From assembly GCF_004210375.1 (NCBI RefSeq), contig NC_134832.1, positions 152,889,592 through 152,953,591 on the forward strand: DNA of 64,000 nucleotides, in the 5' to 3' direction. Of the stretch, positions 17,795 through 47,700 are shown piece after piece; the stretch's first letter is position 1, and each line of letters opens with the position of its first letter. This DNA comes from Tachypleus tridentatus (lineage: Eukaryota > Arthropoda > Merostomata > Xiphosura > Limulidae). A program made the translations under genes and the position numbers. Below the pieces are notes generated by a model, which saw only the letters and a list, made by a program, of their open reading frames with translations, made no database searches and had not been told where the DNA came from.

Positions 17795-20700
17795 GTAAGC
17801 AGTTACTACCTGCAATGATAGATATTAAGACATCGGAACCGTCAAAAGAATTGTAGATGCATAATGGCGACGTCGAAACATGGCATATTATACTTTTAAC
17901 AACATTTGTATTTGGATATTTAGTTATTCTCTGAGTCATTATTTGTAACAGTTTTACGAAATTATAAATGATACTTGAATATTTAATATGATGTACATTA
18001 GTGTCAAAGAAAATGACAAATACCAACTAACAGTAGTAAACTCCATTTATCCTTGTACAATAAATATAATTACACAAGTATGTATGAGTACAATAATTAT
18101 CCGTTTGTACAGTAACATATATTAATTTTAACAGATAATTTATTCTTTATAAGAAGCTTTCAAGTAAGGAGAAACATAGTTCTGTTAAGTGTACTTTGTG
18201 TGTTTTTTGAATTTCGCGCAAAGCTACTCGAGGGCTATCTGCGTTAGCCGTCTAATTTAGCAGTGTAAGACTAGTGGGAAGGCAGCTAGTCATCACCAAA
18301 CATGCTCGCCCTTCAACAGTGGGGACGTTATTATGTTATGGTCAATCTCACTATTCGTTGGTAAATGAGTACCCCAACAGTTGGCAGTGGGTCGAGTGCT
18401 TTAACCACCTGGCCATGCCAGGACGGTACTTGAATTTAAACAACTTGTGTGAACTTACTGTCAAACCAAACTGAGTTCCTTTCAGTTTTACTTGTGTACA
18501 AGTTCTACATGGATTGATAGACTTCAGTGTTACCCAGAAGTATGATATTTCTGTATTGTTGCAGTACAGTAAATGGATATAATTTATTTATGCTGTTTAC
18601 AAAATATGAACACACTCTAGATTATTTACTCTAGCTAATAAATTATAGCTAACTTAAAACATAAAATACTAGTATGATAATCTTGTAATAACAGTTTTGA
18701 ACTGAAAATAGAAGGATATTTTTAGACTTGGGGTGTAGACTGTCAAGACATCCTTGATCGACCATGTTTCTGTACTGTCTCACAAGTTATAAACAAATTT
18801 TTTCTACTCTGCTACTATCACTATTAGCTCTTATTAAATAGCTAGTCCATTATCAAAGGTAATAATATTATACTTATTACTAACACTACTGTTATTATTA
18901 TTAACTGATACTACTAGTAATAGTAATTTAGACCTAATTAGATTACTGAGTGTGGCACCATTTACAAAATCAATTACTTGTATACAATTGTGCCTTAGCT
19001 ACCTATAGGTTATATCACCTTATCTAACTTAAAAAATACTTTGATTTACCCATATGTTTTTACAACTTTCAAGTTCTAATTAGTTACATTTGTATCTGTA
19101 ATGTGAGAAGAAAAACACTGAAATAGTTAGGTGATATGGCTATTGGTTTAATGTGAGAAAAAAAACATCAAGATAGGTGATATAGTCATTGGTTTAATCA
19201 TAAATGTGAGAAGGAAGATGTTAAGAAATTGCTAATCTGTCATAATTGTCACTAATTTTGTGTTTCTGTGTGCTTCTGTAATCTTTTTTTAATGAATCTT
19301 GTGACTTATCTCTGTTGTGTAAGTTAGTAATAAATTCAGCTTATGTAAGTGTTGTATATTGGAACAAGCCAGTTAACTTTGGTTTATGGTTCTTGCTGGC
19401 TTTATACCAGTAACTTTACTGCTCATCTTATACTCTTGCACTTAATTTATTCAGAATCTCTATCTTTTCTTGGTAACATAATAATTTTCCTTGTTTAACT
19501 ATTTGTAGATGTTATAGTCTTATCAGTATATAGATAGTGTGATTTTGAAAGTTAATTTAATAAGACAACAAGGAACCATATAGTCCTTCAAACTTTTCCA
19601 CATGCACTCACCTCTGGCAAGCAATAAAAAAATTAAACTATATTCGTTTTTGGGAAAACATTTCCATCTGTAAGCTTTACTAAAGAGCCAGTTTCAACTG
19701 CTGTCAATAGCATCTTGCAACACAACCACATCAAAAAATAAAGCTGTCTTAATTGGAGTCAAGCTTGGCTTACACAAACCTTAAACATGTGTCTTCTTTT
19801 GAGAGTGTATTATAAATAAATCAGAGGCATTTATTCACTCAAACACTCTAATAAAATTGTAAACTTTCATAAGAACATATCAAAAATAAAATAAATATAT
19901 TTTAACCTTTTAATGTTATATAACTCTTCCATCTCATAATTATCCTATCAACCTTTCTCTGAACCATCTCTAATAAGTCAATATCCTAACTTAGATAAGA
20001 CAAACTATATCCAGTATTCCAAGTAACTAGTGTTTTGTGTACAGATAAAATATCATATTTTATACTGATATGTATAGATAAATCCTAAAATTCTATTTAC
20101 TTCAGTATTAACATTTTTAGCAGCTTGAATGATGTATGTGCAAGTACCACTATGTTACAGTCCTTTTCATCATATTTTAGTAATTTGAGTGACTTGCCTA
20201 CCAGTACCATTATGTCACATTTCTTATCATTACATTTTAGTAGTTTGAGTGACTTGCCTACCAGTACCACTATGTTACAGTCCTTATCATTACATTTTAG
20301 TAATTTGAGTGACACCAGTACCACTATGTGTAGTTTGAGTGACTTGCCTACCAGTACCACTATGTCACAGTCCTTATCATTACTTGCCTACCAGTTTGTC
20401 ACAGTCCTTATCATTACATTTTAGTAGTTTGAGTGACTTGCCTACCAGTACCACTCAGTCCTTATCATTACATTTTAGTAGTTTGAGTGACTTGCCTACC
20501 AGTACCACTATGTCACAGTCCTTATCATTACATTTTAGTAGTTTGACTTGCCTACCAGTACCACTATGTCATCCTTATCATTACATTTTAGTAATTTGAG
20601 TGATTGCCTACCAGTACCACTATGTATAGTTTGAGTGACTTGCCTACCAGTACCACTATGTCACAGTCCTTATCATCAGTGTATGTATGTTTACCACTAT

Positions 20701-23700
20701 GTCACAGTCCTTATCACTTGCATCAGTGTGTGTATGTATAGTTTGACTGAGTTTGTCATCATCATTACATTTTAGTAGTTTGAGTGACTTGCCTACCAGT
20801 ACCACTATGTCACAGTCCTTATCATTACATTTTAGTAGTTTGAGTGACTTGCTTACCAGTACCACTATGTCACAGTTCATCATTACATTTTAGTAGTTTG
20901 AGTGACTTGCCTACCAGTACCACTATGTCACAGTCCTTATCATTACATTTTAGTAGTTTGAGTGACTTGCCTACCAGTACCACTCACAGTCCTTATCATT
21001 ATGTTATAGTTTGAGTGACTTGCCTACCAGTACCACTATGTCACAGTCCTTATCATCAGTGTGTTGCCTATGTATGTCACAGTCCTTACATTACATACAT
21101 TTTAGAGTTTGTCATCAGTATATGTATAGTCCTTATCATTACATTTTAGTAGTTTGAGTGACTTGCCTACCAGTACCACTCAGTGTATGTATGTAGTTTG
21201 AGTGACTTGCCTACCAGTACAGTTTTAGTCATCAGTGTGTGTTTGAGTGTATGTTTGTCACTGAGTTTGTCATCAGTATATGTATATTTGCCTACCAGTA
21301 CCACTATGTCACAGTCCTTATCATTACATTTTATAGTTTAGTGACTTGCTTTACCACTATGTCACAGTTCAGTAGCCATCAGTTATGTTTACTTACAGTT
21401 TGTCACTCATCAGTGTGTATATGTATGTTTACTGAGTTTGTCATCAGTATATGTGTATATTTTTTACAGTTTGTCATCAGTATATGTATATTTCAGCCAG
21501 TTTCATCAGTGTATGTATGTTTACTTACAGTTTCACTCATCAGTGTGTGTATGTATGTTTACTGAGTTTGTCATCAGTATATGTATATTTACACACAGTT
21601 TCAGCCATCAGTGTATGTATGTTTACTTACAGTTTTAGTCATCAGTGTGTGTATGTATGTTTACTGAGTTTGTCATCAGTATATGTATATTTACACACAG
21701 TTTCAGCCATCAGTGTATGTATGTTTACTTACAGTTTCACTCATCAGTGTGTGTATGTATGTTTACTGAGTTTGTCATCAGTATATGTATATTTACACAC
21801 AGTTTCAGCCATCAGTGTATGTATGTTTACTTACAGTTTTAGTCATCAGTGGGCCCAGCATGGCCAGGTGGTTAAGGCACTCGACTTGTAATCTGAGGGT
21901 TGTGGGTTCAAACCCCCATTGCACCAAACATGCTCGCCCTTTTAGCCATGGGTGCATTATAATGTGACAATCAGTCCCACTATTCTTTGGTAAAAGAGTA
22001 GCCCAAGAGTTAGTAGTGGGTGGTGATGACTAGCTGCCTTCCCTCTAGTCTTACACTGCTAAGTTAGGGATGGCTAGTGCAGATAGCCCTCATGTAGCTT
22101 TGCACAAAATTCAAAATGAACCAAAACAATCATCAGTATATGTATGTTTACTTACAGTTTTAATCATCAGTGTATGTGTGTTTACTTAAAGCTTAAGTCA
22201 TCAATGTATGTTTACTTATAGTTTCTCATCAGTATAGGTATGTATGTTTTCTTGTATAGTTTGTCATCAGCAATATATATGTTTACTTAACAGTTGTTTA
22301 ATATAAACAGAGTTTAACCTTTTTTATTGGTGGATAAAATATAGCTTCATTATATTACATATAGTCACTATTATCTACTGGGATTTCTCTCTTATTTTGC
22401 ATTGCTGCGTTTTTATCAGTTTAACCTTGAAGATGTTCATGTTTTTGCTTGAGTTATATAATAGTATTTACAATTTATTTCTCTCACTTTTGTCCTTAAT
22501 TTGAAGTTTTATAACTTATGTATACAGTCTAATGTGATGTTACATAAAACACATGTAGTTATGCTTTGTTTTATTGAAACCATTAATTGTAGTTATGTAA
22601 AACATTTGTATTTGCTGTCACATGACTAGGTTTCATCAGTAGAGCTTTAACTTTTGTCTTTCCTGTACTTTAACAGATCATAACATTGTACATGCATGGA
22701 ATTAGATATTCATTGTATCAACCTGAGAGAAATTGTAACATTTAAAGGAATATTTTCAAGTAAATATGAAGAAATGTAACAAGTAGTTTTGGATGAACTT
22801 GAGTTACACAGATGTTTATTTGTTTTTGAATATTGTCCACAAAGAAGTTGAAGTACTTATACCAATATTTAATATAGAGTCATGGGTGGTGAAGTAATTA
22901 TACCCATATGTAATGTAGAGTCATGGGTTGTGAAGTAATTATACCCATATGCAATGTAGAGTCATGGGTGGTGAAATAATTATACCTGTATTTAACGTAG
23001 AGTCATGGGTGGTGAAATAATTATACCTGTATTTAATGTAGAGTCATGGGTGGTGAAATAATTATACCTATATTTAATGTTGAATCATGGGTGATGAAAT
23101 AATTATACCTATATTTAATGCAGAGTCATGGGTGGAACTAAACTTAGCAAGTGGAGAATGCACCCATGCCCGTTCTACTCCTGTTCCTTTTGGAGGATCC
23201 ATTTTGAATGGGAACATGGAGAATCTTCTATGGGAGGCACAACGAGAAAGTAATCGTTCCTCAGCTGTAGCAAGTGGAAAATCCTCTCATGGCAATAGGT
23301 ACTATTGGTACAATAGTTACTGTTCTTGCATGTATATTCTTATTCCAAGTAGGTGAATGAGTTACTATTAATACTACTGTTGTTCTTATGTATTTATAGG
23401 TATAAATGCACAAAACTATTAAGCATCCATTTTTACATTCATTCAGTGAAGGTTTCCATAGTTAACAAATGCTGTTATTTAAATTAGATTTCTGTGGAAA
23501 TATATACATATGTACATATATTCTGCATTGTGTAAACAGTGTTTTCTTGGATTAGAGTAATATATACAACGATCAAAATTGAAAATATGTTAAGTGCTGT
23601 AAGTTCTGTTTATCCAGATGTGCTTCAAAAATTAATTAGCAGACCTTATTAGGATAACATCTTTTTCTAGGAAAGAAATATGTGAACTTGTAATTTCATC

Positions 23701-26700: not shown

Positions 26701-29700
26701 TCAAAATGCTCTAATGTGTTTGAGAATAATTATTTTATGCTTTAATAATGCTGTGTTAGCTGTCTCTGTTTGTAGTCTAACTTATTAATAATACTTTTGT
26801 CAATGAGTCATTGTTGATTTATATATTACACAGCACTTTGGTTATACAGACTGTTTTGTTATATTTAGTTGTATCTCCTTGATGTAAGATTAAACTAGCA
26901 GTTTGATAATGTGTATATGTTTTTGAAGTTTTAAAAGCTAAGAAAATAACATTCTTTGTTTAAAATTATAAGTATCTTTTTATTCTCAGATGACCAGTGC
27001 ACAACCTATCCAGTATATGTTTCTGTTCTCCTAAGAAAATTAAAAAAATATGGTTATTATGTGTCTCAAAAATGGTTATTTCACCTTTTTTTTTCTAATT
27101 TTTGGCTATATTAGATCTTTCAAAATGTTTTGTTCATATTTTTTTCTAGCCCAAAGAGCCCTCACAGTCCAGTGAGTGAACAACCATCTAATCCTCATGA
27201 ATTACTGATCATTAATAGAGTAAGGTTTTGTTTTTGTGGACTTCTTTATAAAGTAATCTAACATTTTTCATGCATTTAATTCTTATAACATTATACGTAT
27301 GATTGGTGTGTGTATTTTATTTATCTTCGTATGAACACATTGTTAGAACAGCTTAGTTCACATTTGATATTACTGTTTTTACAGAGAACAAACTTAAAGT
27401 AATGGGAAGTTGCTAAGATATATAAATTGTTCATGTTTAGTTTTCTTGTTTCCATTTGGAGAGACACTTGCCTTAGTTAATGATTAAAATGGTCAGTGTA
27501 TACCTAGCTTAATATATATCACTAGCAAATTAATAAGAATAAAACATGTAGTTCACCCAGTCACTTGGGTAATGAAATATATGCAATATAATTGCCTAGT
27601 AGGCCATTTAAAACCATATTTTTTTCATTCTATGTGTTATTTCAGTAAGGAAGATTACATTGTATTTGTTTTTGAGCAAAAGAAACTGACTGCAGTGCAT
27701 TGTTAGTAAACATTTTGGGGTTCAGCTGCAAAAGATAGTTCCATCGCAATAGAGTGCTTAGGTTTGCCAAATAATTGCAAAGGTGATTTTCTCCTGAATG
27801 CCACTGTTCCTTGTCATTTTAATGAGTGCAAGAAAAGACTGAAATTCTTCACAGTTGTCGCTTCTGTAAGAAGTGTCAAAGGGAAGATATTCAAATCAAT
27901 TTATTCAACATGGTACAATAAAATCATGCATGTATGTTATACTGACATGAGAATGCTCTAATGAACTGAAGAACAATGAACCTATACTTAGAATTTATAT
28001 GTTTGTGGTGTTCATACTCCCCTCTTTAAATATCTGTTTCATTTGGTCAGTGGACGAAGTCCTGTTTTTCCCCCATGAGTTTCCATCACAGAAAGTAACA
28101 TTTTTGTTCTTAATAAGTTTTTTCTCAAATTGACAGTTCAGCATATATAAAGATTGACAAATTAATGTCAACAAAAAATTTTAGAAACAGAAAAGAACTG
28201 AGAAAGTGAACAATTTTCCTGTACTGTACTCTTGAAAAGAAATGTAATTTTTTCTAGTGTTAAATATTCAGACAGACATTTAGCTATTATATGTTTAAAA
28301 CCTTATTTACTCTGCCTGTTCTTTAATTGGAAATGTTTAGTTACTGAAGGTGATATGTCATCTTTTTTTACAGTTTAAAGAGAGTAGAAGGTATGTGAAG
28401 CAAATGAAAATAGATTGTATAAAGTCAAACACACATGATTCTATTATCCTGCCACTAAAATTAACTGGTAGAGTTGATTTATTTACATTTTTAGAGCTGA
28501 TAATATTAAACCACAATTGAAAGTGTAAGAAAAGTTCACTACATATATCAACTTCTACAAATTGTCATTTTGTGATAATGTTAATGCCATTCTTATAGTA
28601 GAAAGTGGTTGGACAGTATATTTTACATATTTTGATACAAACTCTTGTAGTTGTACCATTTAAGTTTAATTTTGATATAGTAATTTTTTATTTTTTTTTG
28701 CTTCACCTTATGCAGTTTCAAATACTTGAAAGTGGCTAGCCTCATGATTTATATTCAGGATATGTGTTTGTAGAACAGCATGGCCAGTTCATTGGGTTAT
28801 GACAAGAACAGTACTCGAATAGCACAAGAGGATTAGACTCACTGACAGGTTCAAATTACAGAACATAAATTTTTTACAAAGGTCATAACTTCTGTTCTTG
28901 CCATGTTACTAATCCTCTATAGTGAATTTTCCTACCTTTAATGCTATAAAAATTATGGTTAAAAAGTTGTTGAAACTTTCAACATATTAGTGTAATATTA
29001 TAATAAAACTAAATGTATAGTTAGTCTAATAAATGAAGCAATACATTCACAGACAAAAAGAGAGAGAGAATCAATTGACTCTGATAGAAAAACAACAAGA
29101 AATACCAATTATCACTGGTCATTTTGTGTTTTAGGAAGATCTGCTTGGTAAAGGAGGGCAAGCTGTTACTGACTGGATATGGGAGTGGAGTAGCAGACCC
29201 GATCAAAGACCTCCCAAGTTAGTTTTTCTATTCTATATATATCATAGAAAATTGAAACTGTGATTAATAATTATATTTATCATTAATTTAATTGTGGCTT
29301 TCCAATACTGATTCAAAGAAAATAAAATAATATATTAATTTCAGTAATAGTTTGTTTACTTGAAAGAAAAGTGTCTGTCTATGTAAGGAAAATAGAAACA
29401 ATATGAATTTGGGTTTTGAACCAAGAACATATTGTGTTTAGTTAAAATGTGTTCAGTTGTATCATAGAAAAACCTTAAGTTGTAATGAATGAATTAAAAA
29501 TGATTGGGTGCTGGAAGTTTGAACAAAATTACATAGATTTTTGTAAGGAGGAAAATAGACAATGTCCAAGTTATTACCAGCTAATATTATTTTACTTGTT
29601 AGGAAATATGTTTATAGAAATTCTACCAGGTCATTTAGAAAGGTATCATATTACTACAGATAGTTGGCATGTATTCAGAAAGGGGGACTAGTATTGTTAT

Positions 29701-32700
29701 TTGATAACGTTTGTTTCCCCCTTGGTGTGGATTTCTGCATGTGGTGAGGAGACCTCACAGAAAAGGTTCTGTTCTTTTGGTTTACCTTCTCTGGTATCTA
29801 AACATCCACCCACGTGTTTGCTGTGGGTGGTAACTTGTGAAGGAAAGGAGAGTATCTTGATGTTCAACCCTAATACACCACTTTGGCCTTACATTCCTGT
29901 AGATGAGCAGTCTAGAGGTGACCCCCCTCCAGGGTCATTCAGCTGGTTCACTAGGACTAGAGTCAGCCAAGTACCAGTGTTGGTGTTTGGGTATAGTGCT
30001 CACGGAACCCTGGTGTTGCTGTAATGTTTGGCATTGCAGTGCATCCCCTTGTAGGGTTCCATGGTTGGACAGTGAGTACTGAAATGATTTTATTATGGAT
30101 ACCCCCATTCATAAACAATAAATAGATAAAACTTAGAAAAAAAAATGATAATTGATAAACAATCATAAATGAATGAATGTTCAACAATCACCATCACAGT
30201 CGGATCCTGTACCTAGATTTCTCTTTTGCATTTGTTATCTGGTAAATCCTTAGGGCAGATGTCTCCCTTTTCATTCAGAATGGATTAGAGAGGTTTATTG
30301 GATCCCACAAGTCAGTAAGGAAGCTGTATTTAGGAGACATTTTGGTGGAAACATCTTCACCAAACTTATCTTGAAGTCGAGGGCCATGGAGGATATACCC
30401 ATCAAGATTACTCTCCATACAACTTTGAATTCTTTCAGGGGAGTTATAGTTGAGAAGGATTTAAAGAACGTTCCCTGGTTGGAGATCCTAGCTGATTTTT
30501 CCAGCTAAGGCGTTTTGCACTGTATCAAATCTCTGCTCACAAAGACGGAATTATGCTGTCTACTAATGTGCTGATTTTAATGCTTACATCACCACTTCTA
30601 CCTGCCACCATCAAAGCAGGATATCTGAACTGTAAGGTACAGCCATATATTTTTAATCCTCTCACATGATTCTAGTGTCAGCAGTTCAGTCATTTGAATA
30701 CATCATGTCGTGGATCTTTAACATATGCTCATTGTGGTGTCAAAGGCCATGACACCTGAATGTGAACTGGAATCACAATATATTGACTGTAGTAGTTCAC
30801 AACCCTCTTACTTTCATTTTTGCTCTAGGTGGGTGAAGGAAAAAGAGGTACAGCATTTGAAAATGGTTCACAATATTTCTTAGAATAGTTTTCCAATTAT
30901 GTGAAGAGTCTTTTACCCTCCTTGGTTGAGAGATGTGACAAGTAGACATCTACTTCCATCTTTGTCCCCACCACTCCTTCCAGTGACTCTTCATTTCCTT
31001 TGGCTCCAGGTTGTGGCATTTTCTTAGGTCAATCTTCTTTTCCAGCCCCTAGATGCAAAACAATAATCATTCACATCTTCGGTCACTGAAATTTTTGTCT
31101 ACTGACAGAGACCTGCCCACTCGATCCAGGGCGGGATACATGGAAGTCGATAGATCTTCTTCCAATAAAGAAAAACACATGGTTGAAAACAGAAGGTTTC
31201 TCTGCCCAATTTTCCTCCACTTGAGTAAAAATGGGTACTTTGATACAGTGGAGCTGTTGAGGTATTCATTTGAATATAGACAACATCAAAGATTTGATTT
31301 ATTCTTATCATCCTATGTATGTCTACTTACAAGAAACATTTCTTAAACTTGCTGATGCAGTCACCTTTTGCTCTCTCCTCTGGTCAGTCAATCCCACCAT
31401 AACCTATTACCATCCCCAAATGTGACATTTCTCTGAGTCATCTGAGGAAAGTGGGTACTCCCGCTTGAAGTACCATCTTCTATTTGCTGAACATCTTTCG
31501 ATCTATCCTTCCATTTCCGTTTATACAGATGGCTTAAAATCAAGTGACTCTGTGGGTTTTCCATGGTTTGTTGTAGTTTAGTGGTTGCACACAGGATTAC
31601 CTCTACAGCTTCTGTGTTCACTGCTGAATTGTAAGCCATTTCTCTTGTCCTGGATCATGTAGAAGCTATGCAGTACAAGAACTGAACTATTAATACCAAC
31701 TCGCTTATCTCTGTACTGGCTCTTGAATCATTACATGTTTATTCTCTTCCTGTTCTCGGTGATATTCAAAGCCGACTGGCCCATTTCTCTTTATCATCCA
31801 TTTGTATCCAGTTCTTCTGGATACCAGCCCACATTGGTATTTGCAGGAATGAACTTGCTGACACCTCAGCTAAGTCTGTCTCCTCTGTTGCTGTCATGGC
31901 AGTGCCTGTCCCATACATGGACTACTGTCCTGTATTCAAGGCTTGGCTCCATACCAGTTGGAGTAAGCAATCTGATGACAAGCTTTTCCAGATCAAACCT
32001 TTTGTTACTTGTTGGCCATCTTCCTTCTGTAAAGATCAGAAGGAAATTTTTTCTGGCTAGGCTATGCATTGGTCACAAGTTTTTAAGTAATCATTTTCTT
32101 TTATCTGGGACTGATGCACCAATGTGTGGTCTGTGTGACACACAAGTCACAATATCCCACATTTTACTATTGTGCCATTGTTATGAGCATGAGCAATGGC
32201 ACCCTTTTAGACATGTTTTACCATGGGTTCACCCTAATGCTGAACAGTGTCATTGGTAATGTTTTTAAATTTTTAAGGGCTATTTGGCCTTTTAATTCTG
32301 CTTAAGTTTTTAATTTGAAACCTGGCCTTTGTTTCAACATGATTCTTTCTTTACATATTTTAATAATTTTACTTTTATTTTTTATTTTTACCAGTTGTTT
32401 GGTGTAGATAGCCTAGTTGATTTATACCAATAAATGCCAAGCAACCAACCATTTGTTTCATTCTATCTAAACATGGGTAATGCAGTATATTTGAATATGT
32501 GGACATTTAGAAAGCTTTAATGGGATACTACTTAAAAGAATGTTTAAAATAGGTTATTTCTGTTGGGCAGGGGATAAATTAGTTATATGGTATAAGTGGA
32601 AGAAGAATCACAATGAATTGATGTTACAAATGATATACCACAGGAAGAATCACAATGAATTGATGTTACAAATGGTATACCATGGGAAGAATCACAATGA

Positions 32701-35700
32701 ATTGATGTTACAAATGGTATACCATGGGAAGAATCACAATGAATTGATGTTACAAATGATATACCACAGGAAGAATCACAATGAATTGATGTTACAAATG
32801 ATATACCACAGGAAGAATCACAATGAATTGATGTTACAAATGGTATACCATGGGAAGAATCACAATGAATTGATATTACAAATGATATACCACAGGAAGA
32901 ATCACAATGAATTGATGTTACAAATGGTATACCACAGGAAGAATCACAATGAATTGATGTTACAAATGGTATACCACAGGAAGAATCACAATGAATTGAT
33001 GTTACAAATGGTATACCACAGGAAGAATCACAATGAATTGATGTTACAAATGGTATACCACAGGAAGAATCACAATGAATTGATGTTACAAATGGTATAC
33101 CACAGGAAGAATCACAATGAATTGATGTTACAAATGATATACCACAGGAAGGATCACAATGAATTGTTGTTACAAATGGTATACCACGGGAAGAATCACA
33201 ATGAATTGATGTTACAAATGGTATACCATGGGAAGAATCACAATGAATTGATGTTACAAATGATATACCACAGGAAGAATCACAATGAATTGATGTTACA
33301 AATGATATACCACAGGAAGAATCACAATGAATTGATGTTACAAATGGTATACCATGGGAAGAATCACAATGAATTGATGTTACAAATGATATACCACAGG
33401 AAGAATCACAGTGAATTGATGTTACAAATGATATACCACAGGAAGAATCACAATGAATTGATGTTACAAATGGTATACCACAGGAAGAATCACAATGAAT
33501 TGATGTTACAAATGGTATACCACAGGAAGAATCACAATGAATTGATGTTACAAATGGTATACCACAGGAAGAATCACAATGAATTGATGTTACAAATGGT
33601 ATACCACAGGAAGAATCACAATGAATTGATGTTACAAATGGTATACCACAGGAAGAATCACAATGAATTGATGTTACAAATGGTATACCACAGGAAGAAT
33701 CACAATGAATTGATGTTACAAATGATATACCACAGGAAGGATCACAATGAATTGTTGTTACAAATGGTATACCACGGGAAGAATCACAATGAATTGATGT
33801 TACAAATGGTATACCACAGGAAGAATCACAATGAATTGATGTTACAAATGGTATACCACAGGAAGAATCACAATGAATTGATGTTACAAATGGTATACCA
33901 CAGGAAGAATCACAATGAATTGATGTTACAAATGATATACCACAGGAAGAATCACAATGAATTGATGTTACAAATAGTATACCACAGGATTCTATTCTAA
34001 AATTCTCACTATTTCTTATTTTAATCAAAGGCATTGATAATGGACTAAGCAGTGAATTTGCAAAAAATATTAAATTAATAGGTATTTCAGTCAAGATGCT
34101 GAATTTGTGCTGAAAGATTTGGACTCTTTGGTGAGCTGGACTAATACTGTCAGATTTCTTTAATGTTTTAATAAAAGAAGTTATGACAACATTAGTAAAT
34201 AGGCTTGCAAATTTATACTTCATGAACGTTGTTTTGGTTTTAATAATGGAATCTCCATAATCCAGCTATGCAGATTTTGAAAATAATATTCAATTTTTTT
34301 TGTGTCATGTAAGGATTTTTACAAATTTGGAAGAAAAAGATCTCTTTCTTAGATCAAATTATTATTTTGTTCATTGCAACATTTTTTAGTATTATGTTTG
34401 TTAACAAAAATACAGACAAATGCAATAAAAGGGAAGAACATTGATGTCAAATAAACATTAATTCTCTTTGTGTTTTTGTTTTTTTTGTGAAATCTATGTA
34501 TTGTGGTCTTTCCTTTATGTACTGCATCAAGAACATCTTGTTTGAATAACCATCAGTAATCAACCATCATGCTGATGTTCCACCTTCCCTGATGCCTTGA
34601 TGAAATCTTTCCGCTTGTTCTTCAGGAAAATAATCAATATGTGAATGTCAGAGATAAGCTTTCAAGCTCTTATTACAATCAACTCTTTATTGAACATTTT
34701 ATTGAAAATATTTGTCAATAAGTCAATTCACTCTTCTTATTCAGTTTTTCTCATTGACCTTTCAAAATTGTTTATCTGAAGTCTATTTCTAAGTTGTGGT
34801 TCATGAGACACTTCAGGTTGAAAACAATGTCTGTCATCATTTCTGTTGACATCAGGTTCAGAGCAGATTAAATTTTATCAATAAAGTGTGGTGAATTAGG
34901 TACAGGTACATCAGGTCCATGAGCAACAGGTCTTATAGGAGACTGAAGGTGAAGTAGGTACAGGTGCATCAGGTCTTATAGCAGACTGAAGGTTCAGATA
35001 AAAAAAATTCCTTTTTATTTTGAGTGTTGTATCCATGCATGTCATGTGAGCAAAAATAGTAGTCATCTCTTTGGAATTCCAAAAGGCATTTAGTCCATTG
35101 TCTCAACTCTTTGACACAAATGGTGCAAACTTTGTGTGGAGCCCATGATTTGTCTTTGGGCCCAAGTTTTATTTTCAAATGTGTGTAATTATGCTTTTTT
35201 GACAATTTCTGTAGTGTTTTGCCTTTGTTTCTTAACACCAGATTTACCCCAAATATAACATAATATGTTTGGGTTGTTCACGTAACTTCTTGTTACTGCA
35301 GCAGTAAACAAGTAATATAATGAAGAGAAAAATATAATGTAAAAGTATACAAACAAACAAATACCATCCAAAAATGATGCATCGTGTGGCCTATTAACTC
35401 TTGATATACTTGTAGTATGTTTCTAATGGGTTCTAGAACAATCAGTAAGATTCTCACATCATAATTGGTTTATAGAAATCTATAGCAACTGGTTGTCAGT
35501 TATTTAAGCATAACAAAATGTGACCTGATTTCAATGAAAATGATTCACTTATGTAAAAGTACATATGACAATTTTTGAAAAATTCATAGATGATGGAGAA
35601 AAATGGATATCATTTTTTGGAATTAGTGTACATGATTTACTATAGAACATATATAAATATCTAGAAAATAAAACTATTGCAGGCCTTCCGTATTATTGTG

Positions 35701-38700: not shown

Positions 38701-41700
38701 AGAAAGTGGGCATTCAAGCACCCTCAAAGAACTGGCCTGAGTTTGAGACACACAAAAGTGGCAAAACGAGGACTGTTCTCTACTGAGGTTATCTCTGTAT
38801 TAGTGTTCACTAATCTGCTGTCTCTCCTTTTGGGTGCTGGCATAGGGTAGGTACCATATTATTATTATGATATGGTAGATACTATATTATTATTGTAACA
38901 GGGTAGGTACAATATTATTCATGTCTTATGTGGTTCACACTTAGAACTTTAGTATGAAACTTATGTCTCCTATAATTCACCACCTGGTAGCACAGGGATA
39001 CGTCTGTGGACTTGTAATGCTAGAAATCAAGTTTCATTACCTGCATTGAGCACAGTACAAATAGACCATTGTACATCTTTGTGCTTAGCTACAAACAGAC
39101 CAATAATACAAAATCAACTGCCATTATTTTAGTATTATAAGGCACATGGTAACCACATTGACAAAATTATTTAAGAACATGTGTACTGTTTGTGTACATT
39201 GTTATCACTTGCTTAAATGATTGGATTTACACTAAAAGCTAAGCTATTGCACTGTTGTGATTAACAATTTACATTTCAGTGGTAGTATTAGATATGAATT
39301 TGTAACAGCTGACCAACATAAAATAAACCTTTAATTAAAAAACAAATAAGTTTATGATTTAATAACTTCATTAATATGGCTACTTACAGGTAAGTACATA
39401 GTAAATGAAACTGTTAGTACAAGGTTATATAGTGATACTAAGTTACCATTAAGCTTATTTAATGATAATTACATAGTAAATGAAACTGTTAGTACAAGAT
39501 TGTATAGTGATAGTAAGTTACCAATAAGCTTATTTAATGATAATTACATAGTAAGTAAAACTGTTAGTACAAGATTATATAGTGATACTAAGTTACCATT
39601 AAGCTTATTTAATGATAATTACATAGTAAATGAAACTGTTAGTACAAGATTAGTACTAAAAGCTAAGCTATTGCACTGTTGTGATTAACAATTTACATTT
39701 CAGTGGTAGTATTAGATATGAATTTGTAACAGCTGACCATCATAAAATAAACCTTTAATTAAAAAACAAATAAGTTTATGATTTAATAACTTCATTAATA
39801 TGGCTACTTACAGGTAAGTACATAGTAAATGAAACTGTTAGTACAAGGTTATATAGTGATACTAAGTTACCATTAAGCTTATTTAATGATAATTACATAG
39901 TAAGTAAAACTGTTAGTACAAGATTATATAGTGATACTAAGTTACCATTAACCTTATTTAATGATAATTACATAGTAAATGAAACTGTTAGTACAAGATT
40001 ATATCATGATACTAAGTTACCATTAAGCTTATTTAATGATAATTACATAGTAAATGAAACTGTTAGTACAAGATTATATAGTGATACTAAGTTACCATTA
40101 AGCTTATTTAATGATAATTACATAGTAAGTGAAACTGTTAGTACAAGATTATATAGTGATACTAAGTTACCATTAACCTTATTTAATGATAATTACATAG
40201 TAAATGAAACTGTTAGTACAAGATTATATAGTGATACTAAGTTACCATTAACCTTATTTAATGATAATTACATAGTAAATGAAACTGTTAGTACAAGATT
40301 ATATCATGATACTAAGTTACCATTAACCTTATTTAATGATAATTACATAGTAAGTGAAACTGTTAGTACAAGATTATATAGTGATACTAAGTTACCATTA
40401 ACCTTATTTAATGATAATTACATAGTAAGTGAAGCTGTTAGTACAAGATTATATAGTGATACTAAGTTACCATTAACCTTATTTAATGATAATTACATAG
40501 TAAGTGAAACTGTTAGTACAAGATTATATAGTGATACTAAGTTACCATTAACCTTATTTAATGATAATTACATAGTAAATGAAACTGTTAGTACAAGATT
40601 ATATCATGATACTAAGTTACCATTAACCTTATTTAATGATAATTACATATTAAGTGAAACTGTTAGTACAAGATTATATAGTGATACTAAGTTGCCATTA
40701 ACCTTATTTAATGATAATTACATAGTAAGTGAAACTGTTAGTACAAGATTATATAGTGATACTAAGTTACCATTAACCTTATTTAATGATAATTACATAG
40801 TAAATGAAACTGTTAGTACAAGATTATATCATGATACTAAATTACCATTAACCTTATTTAATGATAATTACATAGTAAATGAAACTGTTAGTGCAAAATT
40901 ATATAGTGATACTAAGTTACCATTAAGCTTATTTAATGATAATTACATAGTAAATGAAACTGTTAGTACAAGATTATATAGTGATACTAAGTTACCATTA
41001 AGCTTATTTAATGATAATTACATAGTAAGTGAAACTGTTAGTACAAGATTATATAGTGATACTAAGTTACCATTAACCTTATTTAATGATAATTACATAG
41101 TAAGTGAAACTGTTAGTACAAGATTATATAGTGATACTAAGTTACCATTAAGCTTATTTAATGATAATTACATAGTAAATGAAACTGTTAGTACAAGATT
41201 AGTACTAAAAGCTAAGCTATTGCACTGTTGTGATTAACAATTTACATTTCAGTGGTAGTATTAGATATGAATTTGTAACAGCTGACCAACATAAAATAAA
41301 CCTTTAATTAAAAAACAAATAAGTTTATGATTTAATAACTTCATTAATATGGCTACTTACAGGTAAGTACATAGTAAAGAAACTGTTAGTACAAGGTTAT
41401 ATAGTGATACTAAGTTACCATTAAGCTTATTTAATGATAATTACATAGTAAATGAAACTGTTAGTACAAGATTATATAGTGATAGTAAGTTACCAATAAG
41501 CTTATTAAATGATAATTACATAGTAAGTAAAACTGTTAGTACAAGATTATATAGTGATACTAAGTTACCATTAAGCTTATTTAATGATAATTACATAGTA
41601 AATGAAACTGTTAGTACAAGATTAGTACTAAAAGCTAAGCTATTGCACTGTTGTGATTAACAATTTACATTTCAGTGGTAGTATTAGATATGAATTTGTA

Positions 41701-44700
41701 ACAGCTGACCAACATAAAATAAACCTTTAATTAAAAAACAAATAAGTTTATGATTTAATAACTTCATTAATATGGCTACTTACAGGTAAGTACATAGTAA
41801 ATGAAACTGTTAGTACAAGGTTATATAGTGATACTAAGTTACCATTAAGCTTATTTAATGATAATTACATAGTAAGTAAAACTGTTAGTACAAGATTATA
41901 TAGTGATACTAAGTTACCATTAACCTTATTTAATGATAATTACATAGTAAATGAAACTGTTAGTACAAGATTATATCATGATACTAAGTTACCATTAAGC
42001 TTATTTAATGATAATTACATAGTAAATGAAACTGTTAGTACAAGATTATATAGTGATACTAAGTTACCATTAAGCTTATTTAATGATAATTACATAGTAA
42101 GTGAAACTGTTAGTACAAGATTATATAGTGATACTAAGTTACCATTAACCTTATTTAATGATAATTACATAGTAAATGAAACTGTTAGTACAAGATTATA
42201 TAGTGATACTAAGTTACCATTAACCTTATTTAATGATAATTACATAGTAAATGAAACTGTTAGTACAAGATTATATCATGATACTAAGTTACCATTAACC
42301 TTATTTAATGATAATTACATAGTAAGTGAAACTGTTAGTACAAGATTATATAGTGATACTAAGTTACCATTAACCTTATTTAATGATAATTACATAGTAA
42401 GTGAAACTGTTAGTACAAGATTATATAGTGATACTAAGTTACCATTAACCTTATTTAATGATAATTACATAGTAAGTGAAACTGTTAGTACAAGATTATA
42501 TAGTGATACTAAGTTACCATTAACCTTATTTAATGATAATTACATAGTAAATGAAACTGTTAGTACAAGATTATATCCTGATACTAAGTTACCATTAACC
42601 TTATTTAATGATAATTACATATTAAGTGAAACTGTTAGTACAAGATTATATAGTGATACTAAGTTGCCATTAACCTTATTTAATGATAATTACATAGTAA
42701 GTGAAACTGTTAGTACAAGATTATATAGTGATACTAAGTTACCATTAACCTTATTTAATGATAATTACATAGTAAATGAAACTGTTAGTACAAGATTATA
42801 TCATGATACTAAGTTACCATTAACCTTATTTAATGATAATTACATAGTAAATGAAACTGTTAGTGCAAAATTATATAGTGATACTAAGTTACCATTAAGC
42901 TTATTTAATGATAATTACATAGTAAATGAAACTGTTAGTACAAGATTATATAGTGATACTAAGTTACCATTAACCTTATTTAATGATAATTACATAGTAA
43001 GTGAAACTGTTAGTACAAGATTATATAGTGATACTGAGTTACCATTAAGCTTATTTAATGATAATTACATAGTAAGTGAAACTGTTAGTACAAGATTATA
43101 TAGTGATACTAAGTTGCCATTAACCTTATTTAATGATAATTACATAGTAAGTGAAACTGTTAGTACAAGATTATATAGTGATACTAAGTTGCCATTAACC
43201 TTATTTAATGATAATTACATAGTAAATGAAACTGTTAGTACAAGATTATATCATGATACTAAGTTACCATTAACCTTATTTAATGATAATTACATAGTAA
43301 ATGAAACTGTTAGTACAAGATTATATAGTGATACTAAGTTACCATTAACCTTATTTAATGATAATTACATAGTAAATGAAACTGTTAGTACAAGATTATA
43401 TAGTGATACTAAGTTACCATTAACCTTATTTAATGATAATTACATAGTAAATGAAACTGTTAGTGCAAAATTATATAGTGATACTAAGTTACCATTAAGC
43501 TTATTTAATGATAATTACATAGTAAATGAAACTGTTAGTACAAGATTATATAGTGATACTAAGTTACCATTAAGCTTATTTAATGATAATTACATAGTAA
43601 GTGAAACTGTTAGTACAAGATTATATAGTGATACTAAGTTGCCATTAACCTTATTTAATGATAATTACATAGTAAATGAAACTGTTAGTACAAGATTATA
43701 TCATGATACTAAGTTACCATTAACCTTATTTAATGATAATTACATAGTAAATGAAACTGTTAGTACAAGATTATATAGTGATACTAAGTTACCATTAACC
43801 TTATTTAATGATAATTACATAGTAAATGAAACTGTTAGTACAAGATTATATCATGATACTAAGTTACCATTAACCTTATTTAATGATAATTACTTAGTAA
43901 ATGAAACTGTTAGTGCAAAATTATATAGTGATACTAAGTTACCATTAAGCTTATTTAATGATAATTACATAGTAAATGAAACTGTTAGTACAAGATTATA
44001 TAGTGATACTAAGTTACCATTAAGCTTATTTAATGATAATTACATAGTAAGTGAAACTGTTAGTACAAGATTATATAGTGATACTAAGTTACCATTAACC
44101 TTATTTAATGATAATTACATAGTAAATGAAACTGTTAGTACAAGATTATATAGTGATAGTAAGTTACCAATAAGCTTATTTAATGATAATTACATAGTAA
44201 GTAAAACTGTTAGTACAAGATTATATAGTGATACTAAGTTACCATTAAGCTTATTTAATGATAATTACATAGTAAATGAAACTGTTAGTACAAGATTAGT
44301 ACTAAAAGCTAAGCTATTGCACTGTTGTGATTAACAATTTACATTTCAGTGGTAGTATTAGGTATGAATTTGTAACAGCTGACCAACATAAAATAAACCT
44401 TTAATTAAAAAACAAATAAGTTTATGATTTAATAACTTCATTAATATGGCTACTTACAGGTAAGTACATAGTAAATGAAACTGTTAGTACAAGGTTATAT
44501 AGTGATACTAAGTTACCATTAAGCTTATTTAATGATAATTACATAGTAAGTAAAACTGTTAGTACAAGATTATATAGTGATACTAAGTTACCATTAACCT
44601 TATTTAATGATAATTACATAGTAAATGAAACTGTTAGTACAAGATTATATCATGATACTAAGTTAACCTTATTTAATGATAATTACATAGTAAATGAAAC

Positions 44701-47700
44701 TGTTAGTACAAGATTATATCATGATACTAAGTTACCATTAAGCTTATTTAATGATAATTACATAGTAAATGAAACTGTTAGTACAAGATTATATAGTGAT
44801 ACTAAGTTACCATTAAGCTTATTTAATGATAATTACATAGTAAGTGAAACTGTTAGTACAAGATTATATAGTGATACTAAGTTACCATTAACCTTATTTA
44901 ATGATAATTACATAGTAAATGAAACTGTTAGTACAAGATTATATAGTGATACTAAGTTACCATTAACCTTATTTAATGATAATTACATAGTAAATGAAAC
45001 TGTTAGTACAAGATTATATCATGATACTAAGTTACCATTAACCTTATTTAATGATAATTACATAGTAAGTGAAACTGTTAGTACAAGATTATATAGTGAT
45101 ACTAAGTTGCCATTAACCTTATTTAATGATAATTACATAGTAAATGAAACTGTTAGTACAAGATTATATCATGATACTAAGTTACCATTAACCTTATTTA
45201 ATGATAATTACATAGTAAATGAAACTGTTAGTACAAGATTATATAGTGATACTAAGTTACCATTAACCTTATTTAATGATAATTACATAGTAAATGAAAC
45301 TGTTAGTACAAGATTATATCATGATACTAAGTTACCATTAACCTTATTTAATGATAATTACATAGTAAGTGAAACTGTTAGTACAAGATTATATAGTGAT
45401 ACTAAGTTGCCATTAACCTTATTTAATGATAATTACATAGTAAATGAAACTGTTAGTACAAGATTATATCATGATACTAAGTTACCATTAACCTTATTTA
45501 ATGATAATTACATAGTAAATGAAACTGTTAGTACAAGATTATATAGTGATACTAAGTTACCATTAACCTTATTTAATGACAATTACATAGTAAATGAAAC
45601 TGTTAGTACAAGATTATATCATGATACTAAGTTACCATTAACCTTATTTAATGATAATTACATAGTAAATGAAACTGTTAGTGCAAAATTATATAGTGAT
45701 ACTAAGTTACCATTAAGCTTATTTAATGATAATTACATAGTAAATGAAACTGTTAGTACAAGATTATATAGTGATACTAAGTTACCATTAAGCTTATTTA
45801 ATGATAATTACATAGTAAGTGAAACTGTTAGTACAAGATTATATAGTGATACTAAGTTACCATTAACCTTATTTAATGATAATTACATAGTAAGTGAAAC
45901 TGTTAGTACAAGATTATATAGTGATACTAAGTTACCATTAACCTTATTTAATGATAATTACATAGTAAATGAAACTGTTAATACAAGATTATATAGGGAT
46001 ACTAAGTTACCATTAACCTTATTTAATGATAATTACATATTAAATGAAACTGTTAGTACAAGATTATATCATGATACTAAGTTACCATTAACCTTATTTA
46101 ATGATAATTACATAGTAAATGAAACTGTTAGTGCAAAATTATATAGTGATACTAAGTTACCATTAAGCTTATTTAATGATAATTACATAGTAAGTGAAAC
46201 TGTTAGTACAAGATTATATAGTGATACTAAGTTACCATTAAGCTTATTTAATGATAATTACATAGTAAATGAAACTGTTAGTACGAGATTAGTACTAAAA
46301 GCTAAGCTATTGCACTGTTGTGATTAACAATTTACATTTCAGTGGTAGTATTAGATATGAATTTGTAACAGCTGACCAACATAAAATAAACCTTTAATTA
46401 AAAAACAAATAAGTTTATGATTTAATAACTTCATTAATATGGCTACTTACAGGTAAGTACATAGTAAAGAAACTGTTAGTACAAGGTTATATAGTGATAC
46501 TAAGTTACCATTAAGCTTATTTAATGATAATTACATAGTAAGTAAAACTGTTAGTACAAGATTATATAGTGATACTAAGTTACCATTAACCTTATTTAAT
46601 GATAATTACATAGTAAATGAAACTGTTAGTACAAGATTATATCATGATACTAAGTTAACCTTATTTAATGATAATTACATAGTAAATGAAACTGTTAGTA
46701 CAAGATTATATCATGATACTAAGTTACCATTAAGCTTATTTAATGATAATTACATAGTAAATGAAACTGTTAGTACAAGATTATATAGTGATACTAAGTT
46801 ACCATTAAGCTTATTTAATGATAATTACATAGTAAGTGAAACTGTTAGTACAAGATTATATAGTGATACTAAGTTACCATTAACCTTATTTAATGATAAT
46901 TACATAGTAAATGAAACTGTTAGTACAAGATTATATAGTGATACTAAGTTACCATTAACCTTATTTAATGATAATTACATAGTAAATGAAACTGTTAGTA
47001 CAAGATTATATCATGATACTAAGTTACCATTAACCTTATTTAATGATAATTACATAGTAAGTGAAACTGTTAGTACAAGATTATATAGTGATACTAAGTT
47101 GCCATTAACCTTATTTAATGATAATTACATAGTAAATGAAACTGTTAGTACAAGATTATATCATGATACTAAGTTACCATTAACCTTATTTAATGATAAT
47201 TACATAGTAAATGAAACTGTTAGTACAAGATTATATAGTGATACTAAGTTACCATTAACCTTATTTAATGATAATTACATAGTAAATGAAACTGTTAGTA
47301 CAAGATTATATCATGATACTAAGTTACCATTAACCTTATTTAATGATAATTACATAGTAAATGAAACTGTTAGTGCAAAATTATATAGTGATACTAAGTT
47401 ACCATTAAGCTTATTTAATGATAATTACATAGTAAATGAAACTGTTAGTACAAGATTATATAGTGATACTAAGTTACCATTAAGCTTATTTAATGATAAT
47501 TACATAGTAAGTGAAACTGTTAGTACAAGATTATATAGTGATACTAAGTTACTATTAACCTTATTTAATGATAATTACATAGTAAGTGAAACTGTTAGTA
47601 CAAGATTATATAGTGATACTAAGTTACCATTAACCTTATTTAATGATAATTACATAGTAAATGAAACTGTTAATACAAGATTATATAGGGATACTAAGTT

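Follow-up and report, generated by a model that had tools for sequence, protein, structure and literature searches.

Where each unit of a minisatellite repeats the end of an intron together with the first coding bases of the following exon, two questions arise: what sets the real acceptor apart from its copies, and do the copies affect the output of the gene? The horseshoe crab Tachypleus tridentatus provides such a case at the acceptor of exon 2 of a gene for a BNIP3-type mitophagy receptor. An initial annotation, made from the DNA letters, had drawn attention to this arrangement; here we analyze the array, its host gene and the paralogues of that gene.

The host gene and its relatives

The window, that is, the whole stretch of 64,000 nucleotides that was analyzed (C8:152889592-152953591), contains four recognizable exons of a BNIP3 gene, all on the plus strand: exon 2 (23124..23298, 175 nt, ESWVELNLASG...), exon 3 (27150..27219), exon 4 (29135..29217, DWIWEWSSRP) and exon 5, which encodes the membrane segment (38703..38846). 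Exon 2 was delimited by Pfam, the C7 paralogue and translation, exons 3 and 4 by the comparison of C7 with C8, translation and Pfam on the joined exons, with a family search in addition for exon 4, and exon 5 by the family search, translation and Pfam on the joined exons. Exon 2 alone matches the Pfam family PF06553 with an E-value of 1.9e-11, and the four exons joined match it with 6.7e-46 (156.7 bits against a cut-off of 26), which identifies the gene as BNIP3. The first base of exon 2 is taken to be 23124, not 23126, because exon 2 of the C7 paralogue begins at the homologous position, after ATGTAG. Exon 1 was not found: in the one comparison made between the C7 and C8 regions, nothing but dispersed repeats appeared upstream of exon 2. 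In a pattern scan for the last exon, there were two candidates, neither of them convincing.

The BNIP3 family of this genome comprises 11 matches; those above the cut-off lie on C8 (in both copies of the locus, see below) and C7, and those below it include two on C2 and one on C13, the latter with three stops. In the C7 paralogue, the acceptor and the intron end are ordinary, and there is no array at the exon edges, so that the array at the C8 gene is most simply viewed as derived. One of the sub-threshold exons on C2 (L022, C2:97837188-97837418) follows a 57-bp array and carries TGA in place of the W that its paralogues have in WIWDW or WIWEW. The species assignment of this 2.17-Gb genome, to T. 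tridentatus or a very close relative, agrees with its clotting proteins: the coagulin family, which is not known outside horseshoe crabs, gives 19 matches, and a 128-residue peptide assembled from three translated exons matches coagulogen of T. tridentatus (PDB 1aoc), the mismatches being confined to the exon joins, at which residues had been left out.

Anatomy of the array

Tandem Repeats Finder (TRF) reports, at 22849-23135 on the plus strand, an array with a period of 41, 7.0 copies, 91% matches, 0% indels and a score of 441; with head-to-tail units of this length, within the range of about 10-100 bp, it is a minisatellite. The array takes in the 3' end of the intron as well as the opening 12 bases of exon 2, and its register with the exon edge is directly visible in the aligned units. 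Units 1 to 5 (22849..22889, 22890..22930, 22931..22971, 22972..23012 and 23013..23053) are decoy acceptors with would-be exon starts at 22878, 22919, 22960, 23001 and 23042, respectively. Units 1, 3, 4 and 5 read TAG followed by AGTCATGGGTGG, and unit 2 reads TAG followed by AGTCATGGGTTG, a GGGTTG variant. Unit 6 (23054..23094), TTGAATCATGGGTGA, has no acceptor: both AGs are lost (TTGAA), and the unit lacks any AG. Unit 7 (23095..23135) holds the real acceptor, GCAG followed by AGTCATGGGTGG, and runs on into the BNIP3 exon. All the exon starts proposed initially, including the real one at 23124, thus proved correct, as did the statement that five of six upstream units preserve AG and the copied exon edge, unit 6 being the exception. 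The description of the array as six units that end precisely where exon 2 begins needs a small correction: in register, the six upstream units are joined by a seventh, the real acceptor, and the array extends 12 bp into the exon (23124-23135).

Like other intronic minisatellites and VNTRs, this one consists of slightly diverged head-to-tail units the number of which differs between copies of the locus; unlike them, it has a unit that contains a complete 3' splice site along with coding bases. Close tandem acceptors of the NAGNAG type are similar in that potentially competing acceptors stand in series before one exon, but here the spacing is 41 nt rather than 3 nt, and the use of a decoy would truncate the protein.

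A second copy of the locus

A nearly identical inverted stretch, C8:153840764-153887803, coincides exactly with a single contig of 47,040 bp that is flanked on either side by a 500-N gap. This contig aligns with the window from 18705 onward and, beyond the window end, to about 72,660, and is collinear with it except in the arrays. In blocks outside the main arrays, the two copies differ at 30 of 17,816 bases (0.17%). A close alignment of about 9.1 kb contains 15 substitutions and 13 indels, 12 of the latter in or beside single-base runs and the remaining one at the end of the stretch; in exon 4, the second copy has two extra C within a C run, and exons 2, 3 and 5 are identical in both. Since the contig is collinear end to end and stops at the 500-N gaps, and since the indels are mostly homopolymeric, the likeliest reading is that it represents the other haplotype, misplaced in scaffolding; a recent inverted duplication appears less likely. 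For comparison with the value of 0.17%, no figure for the heterozygosity of this animal was found, and the word does not occur in PMC7011531.

In the second copy, the 41-bp array has eight units, as opposed to seven in the window, the extra one being of the unit 4/5 type; hence the suggestion that the copy number varies is probably borne out, given that the second contig is probably the other haplotype. The presence of the array in two contigs also makes its collapse in assembly, which had been raised as an objection, an unlikely explanation. Altogether, the length is not the same in the two copies for eight array regions, namely 20143-21851 (pooled), 22849, 25530, 32602, 39391-48852 (by about 7 kb), 52047, 60547 and 62485; the array at 19099 differs by 3 bp, and those at 22128, 38842 and 55744 are of the same length in both.

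Strength of the real acceptor and the decoys

To compare the units, we used a matrix built from 59 acceptors of this genome, obtained from 60 sampled myosin exon matches minus one duplicate. The edges of these exons were deduced from the protein match and the likeliest AG, so that single edges may be wrong, and the AG was picked automatically by a score favoring pyrimidines and C/T at position -3, toward which the matrix leans accordingly. The real site scores 2.61, which is the 17th percentile of the 59 acceptors; it is weak, and yet the best of the seven units. Decoys 1 to 5 score -0.83, -0.10, -1.02, 1.68 and 2.13, respectively, such that the real site stands 0.5 bit above the best decoy, and decoys 4 and 5 lie within 0.5-0.9 bit of it. 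Furthermore, of the 824 AGs in introns 2-4 of the BNIP3 gene, 28% equal or exceed the score of the real site. Because the real site is weak, and the best decoys and many intronic AGs are comparable to it, the core sequence does not explain the choice of the acceptor. Nor does the C at position -3 of the real site confer a clear advantage, as the 59 sampled acceptors have 28 C and 27 T there.

The real site is distinguished by two features: it belongs to the only unit directly 5' of the true exon, and it is preceded by an AG-free zone of 78 nt (23044..23121, plus strand), compared to 22-37 nt at the five decoys and 15-33 nt at seven other acceptors of the BNIP3 family. In the myosin sample (n = 60), the median is 28 nt; two zones reach 78 nt, and one more sequence has no AG in its 200-bp flank. 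Of the AG-to-AG gaps in the window, 0.8% reach 78 nt, and these make up 4.5% of the bases. In unit 6, which lies within the zone, two of the three changes removed both AGs; the probability that three random substitutions clear every AG from a unit is 0.012. The AG-less unit 6 is also present in the second copy of the locus, so the loss counts as one event, not two. As a cause of site choice, the AG-free zone is a suggestive explanation, chosen post hoc, and long zones also arise by composition. Exons with AG exclusion zones resemble this case in having, before the acceptor in use, an AG-free stretch longer than those at neighboring sites; however, the available part of PMC1431707 builds its case for distant branch points on zones of 100 and 150 nt or more, longer than the 78 nt found here, and it states that an AG-less repeat can create a long zone unrelated to splicing.

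What would the use of a decoy yield? Three-frame translation gives ESWVVK* from all five intact decoys and ESWVMK* from unit 6. The predicted product, N-E-S-W-V-V-K-stop, is thus recovered five times from E onward, with the preceding N left unestablished as exon 1 was not found, and each intact decoy would bring the premature stop that characterizes unproductive splicing. Since this stop would lie 5' of the later junctions, decay of such transcripts would be expected. The W-x-x-L motif, which we take to bind LC3-type proteins, would be lost. Some leakage to the decoys is plausible, given that decoys 4 and 5 come near the score of the real site and that decoys 1, 3, 4 and 5 share the same 12 downstream bases.

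Origin and age of the array

The following scenario appears probable to us. A 41-bp segment, consisting of 29 bases of the intron end and 12 bases of exon 2, would have been duplicated head to tail across the intron-exon edge and would later have grown into a minisatellite, surrounded by many more such arrays: arrays with a period of at least 10 cover 32% of the surrounding 84-kb region, compared to 8.8% of the C7 region and 2.6% of the C2 region. Each unit but the sixth would then constitute a complete, albeit weak, 3' splice site, with a branch-like TAAT (picked out by eye only), a poor pyrimidine tract, YAG and 12 exon bases. Most likely, exon 1 is still spliced to the last unit, since this unit alone adjoins the true exon with its donor and sits behind the long AG-free zone, and the decoys would be rarely used and mostly silent.

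The array is probably old. Its units differ from each other, on average, at 4.8 of 41 bases (11.6%), compared to 0.17% between the two copies of the locus, which suggests that the array predates the divergence of these copies by far, although this argument is rough, as arrays may mutate faster than their surroundings, which would inflate the divergence. Such an age suggests that the array has been tolerated for long; one that put the gene out of action would probably not have persisted. There is no sign of selection keeping the decoys in the unit alignment, where 3 of 12 exon-like columns and 10 of 29 intron-like columns are variable, which are similar proportions. Another array of the region, at 32602-33989 (42 bp, 33 copies), contains long open reading frames, of 501 and 560 aa, on both of its strands, as the unit is a whole number of codons long.

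One duplication of this sort has been described before. In the potato RdRp gene PGSC0003DMG402000361, according to the available part of PMC4974935, one tandem duplication across the boundary of intron 1 and exon 2 copied the branch site, pyrimidine tract, AG and the start of exon 2, and gave rise to a new intron that is supported by RNA reads. The horseshoe crab array differs in comprising seven or eight units of 41 bp, in the probable variability of its copy number, and in offering, toward a new intron, only weak donor-like sites. Among the matches listed in a search of open-license papers, this was the one close precedent; no multi-unit, probably length-variable array of acceptors was recognized there, nor did any title among the matches listed for the horseshoe crab and BNIP3 concern this gene.

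Arrays at other exon edges

The same gene carries a second array at an exon edge. A 28-bp array of 2.8 copies found by TRF (38842..38919, plus strand) starts within the 3'-terminal 5 bases of exon 5, the donor of which it repeats downstream, in the series ATAGG/GTAGGT, ATATG/GTAGAT, ACAGG/GTAGGT (the slash marks the exon-intron junction). Hence, two donor-like copies lie 3' of the real donor of exon 5, and that in unit 3 equals it in consensus score. The genes on C7 and C2 have no array at the position matching this donor. With random positions for the five arrays of the 22.0-39.3 kb interval, 0.04% of trials had two or more arrays with an edge in the terminal 14 bases, at either end, of one of the four exons, and 3.1% had at least one; the latter value is the fairer yardstick, because the gene was chosen for having one such array.

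The habit of the genome at large was sampled in stretches, with 200-bp flanks, around 60 of 86 matches to the myosin head (two of these, L060 and L061, are near-identical). They contain seven TRF rows with a period of at least 10, in six loci, and no array copying exon bases was seen around the 60 sampled myosin exons. At L076, two overlapping rows begin about 10 bp or more past a donor. At L044 (C9:5680552-5681131, minus strand), a 21-bp array, the unit of which is free of AG, ends 8 bp 5' of the inferred start of a myosin exon and forms the region 5' of its acceptor. Elsewhere, a 37-bp array of six copies (L034, C11, minus strand) begins 22 bp beyond the end of a coagulogen exon.

Alternative interpretations

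A functional role of the decoys is conceivable but, in our view, unlikely. Under this reading, the decoys would compete materially with the real site, the ESWVVK-stop transcripts would be degraded by nonsense-mediated decay, and the output of BNIP3 would fall with copy number, the array acting as a splicing rheostat. The identical early stop behind all five intact decoys, the near parity of the best of these with the real site, and the probable difference in copy number between haplotypes are all consistent with such a device; however, the array seems old, the two copies of the locus do not differ in exons 2, 3 and 5, there is no sign that the exon-like part of the unit is better kept than the intron-like part, and the C7 paralogue has no such array. 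An extended version, in which the copy-number-variable array of complete 3' splice sites would be a heritable rheostat on a mitophagy receptor, the loss of AGs in the exon-adjacent unit would protect the true site, and the array at the donor of exon 5 would serve as another device of this type, strikes us as distinctly improbable.

The remaining readings have very little to recommend them. That the array could be an assembly artefact or part of a dead gene copy is brought to mind by the homopolymer indels of the second copy, including the two extra C in exon 4, which resemble those of an unpolished or broken copy; but exons 2-5 of the window are open and joinable, and both contigs contain the array, making this quite improbable. 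Hardly any credence can be given to nascent introns, with the copied acceptor and, as donor, the GT of the copied exon edge, such that micro-exons of 8 or 11 nt would be spliced between units, in the manner of potato RdRp. It is true that the donor-like sequences GTG/GTGAAA (units 3-5) and GTG/GTGAAG (unit 1) match five of nine consensus letters, equal to the real donor of exon 2, but such micro-exons would shift the frame. Moreover, an intron from one unit to the next would span about 30 nt; introns of about this length are too short, so that units would have to be skipped. The available part of PMC4974935 does provide a published precedent. Just as improbable is an alternative first exon starting inside the intron, whereby the ATG of unit 6 would start a reading frame that crosses unit 7 and continues as that of BNIP3 in exon 2 (MGDEIIIPIFNAESWVELNL...), yielding an unspliced N-terminus. 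The frame at 23087-23125 (MGDEIIIPIFNAESWVEL) is indeed without a stop, and this ATG is the only one in the array from which exon 2 is reached in the frame of BNIP3 without meeting a stop first; nevertheless, chance often produces open frames of 13 codons, and the corresponding frame of the C7 paralogue lacks an ATG before a stop.

Implications

Taken together, these observations make it most likely that the decoys are old side products of the many repeats in this region and have mostly been tolerated. Whatever their effect, the array represents a natural experiment in cis-competition: six near-identical acceptors (seven in the second copy) reside in one intron, and one of them adjoins the real exon, so that existing RNA reads could reveal what, beyond the core site, selects an acceptor. 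With two such arrays in one gene, it also becomes testable whether repeat-rich regions often copy splice sites. The same reads could tell whether minisatellites at exon edges tune the output of genes or are simply tolerated; if the array does act as a rheostat, each extra unit would divert more of the BNIP3 pre-mRNA to a truncated, decayed transcript.
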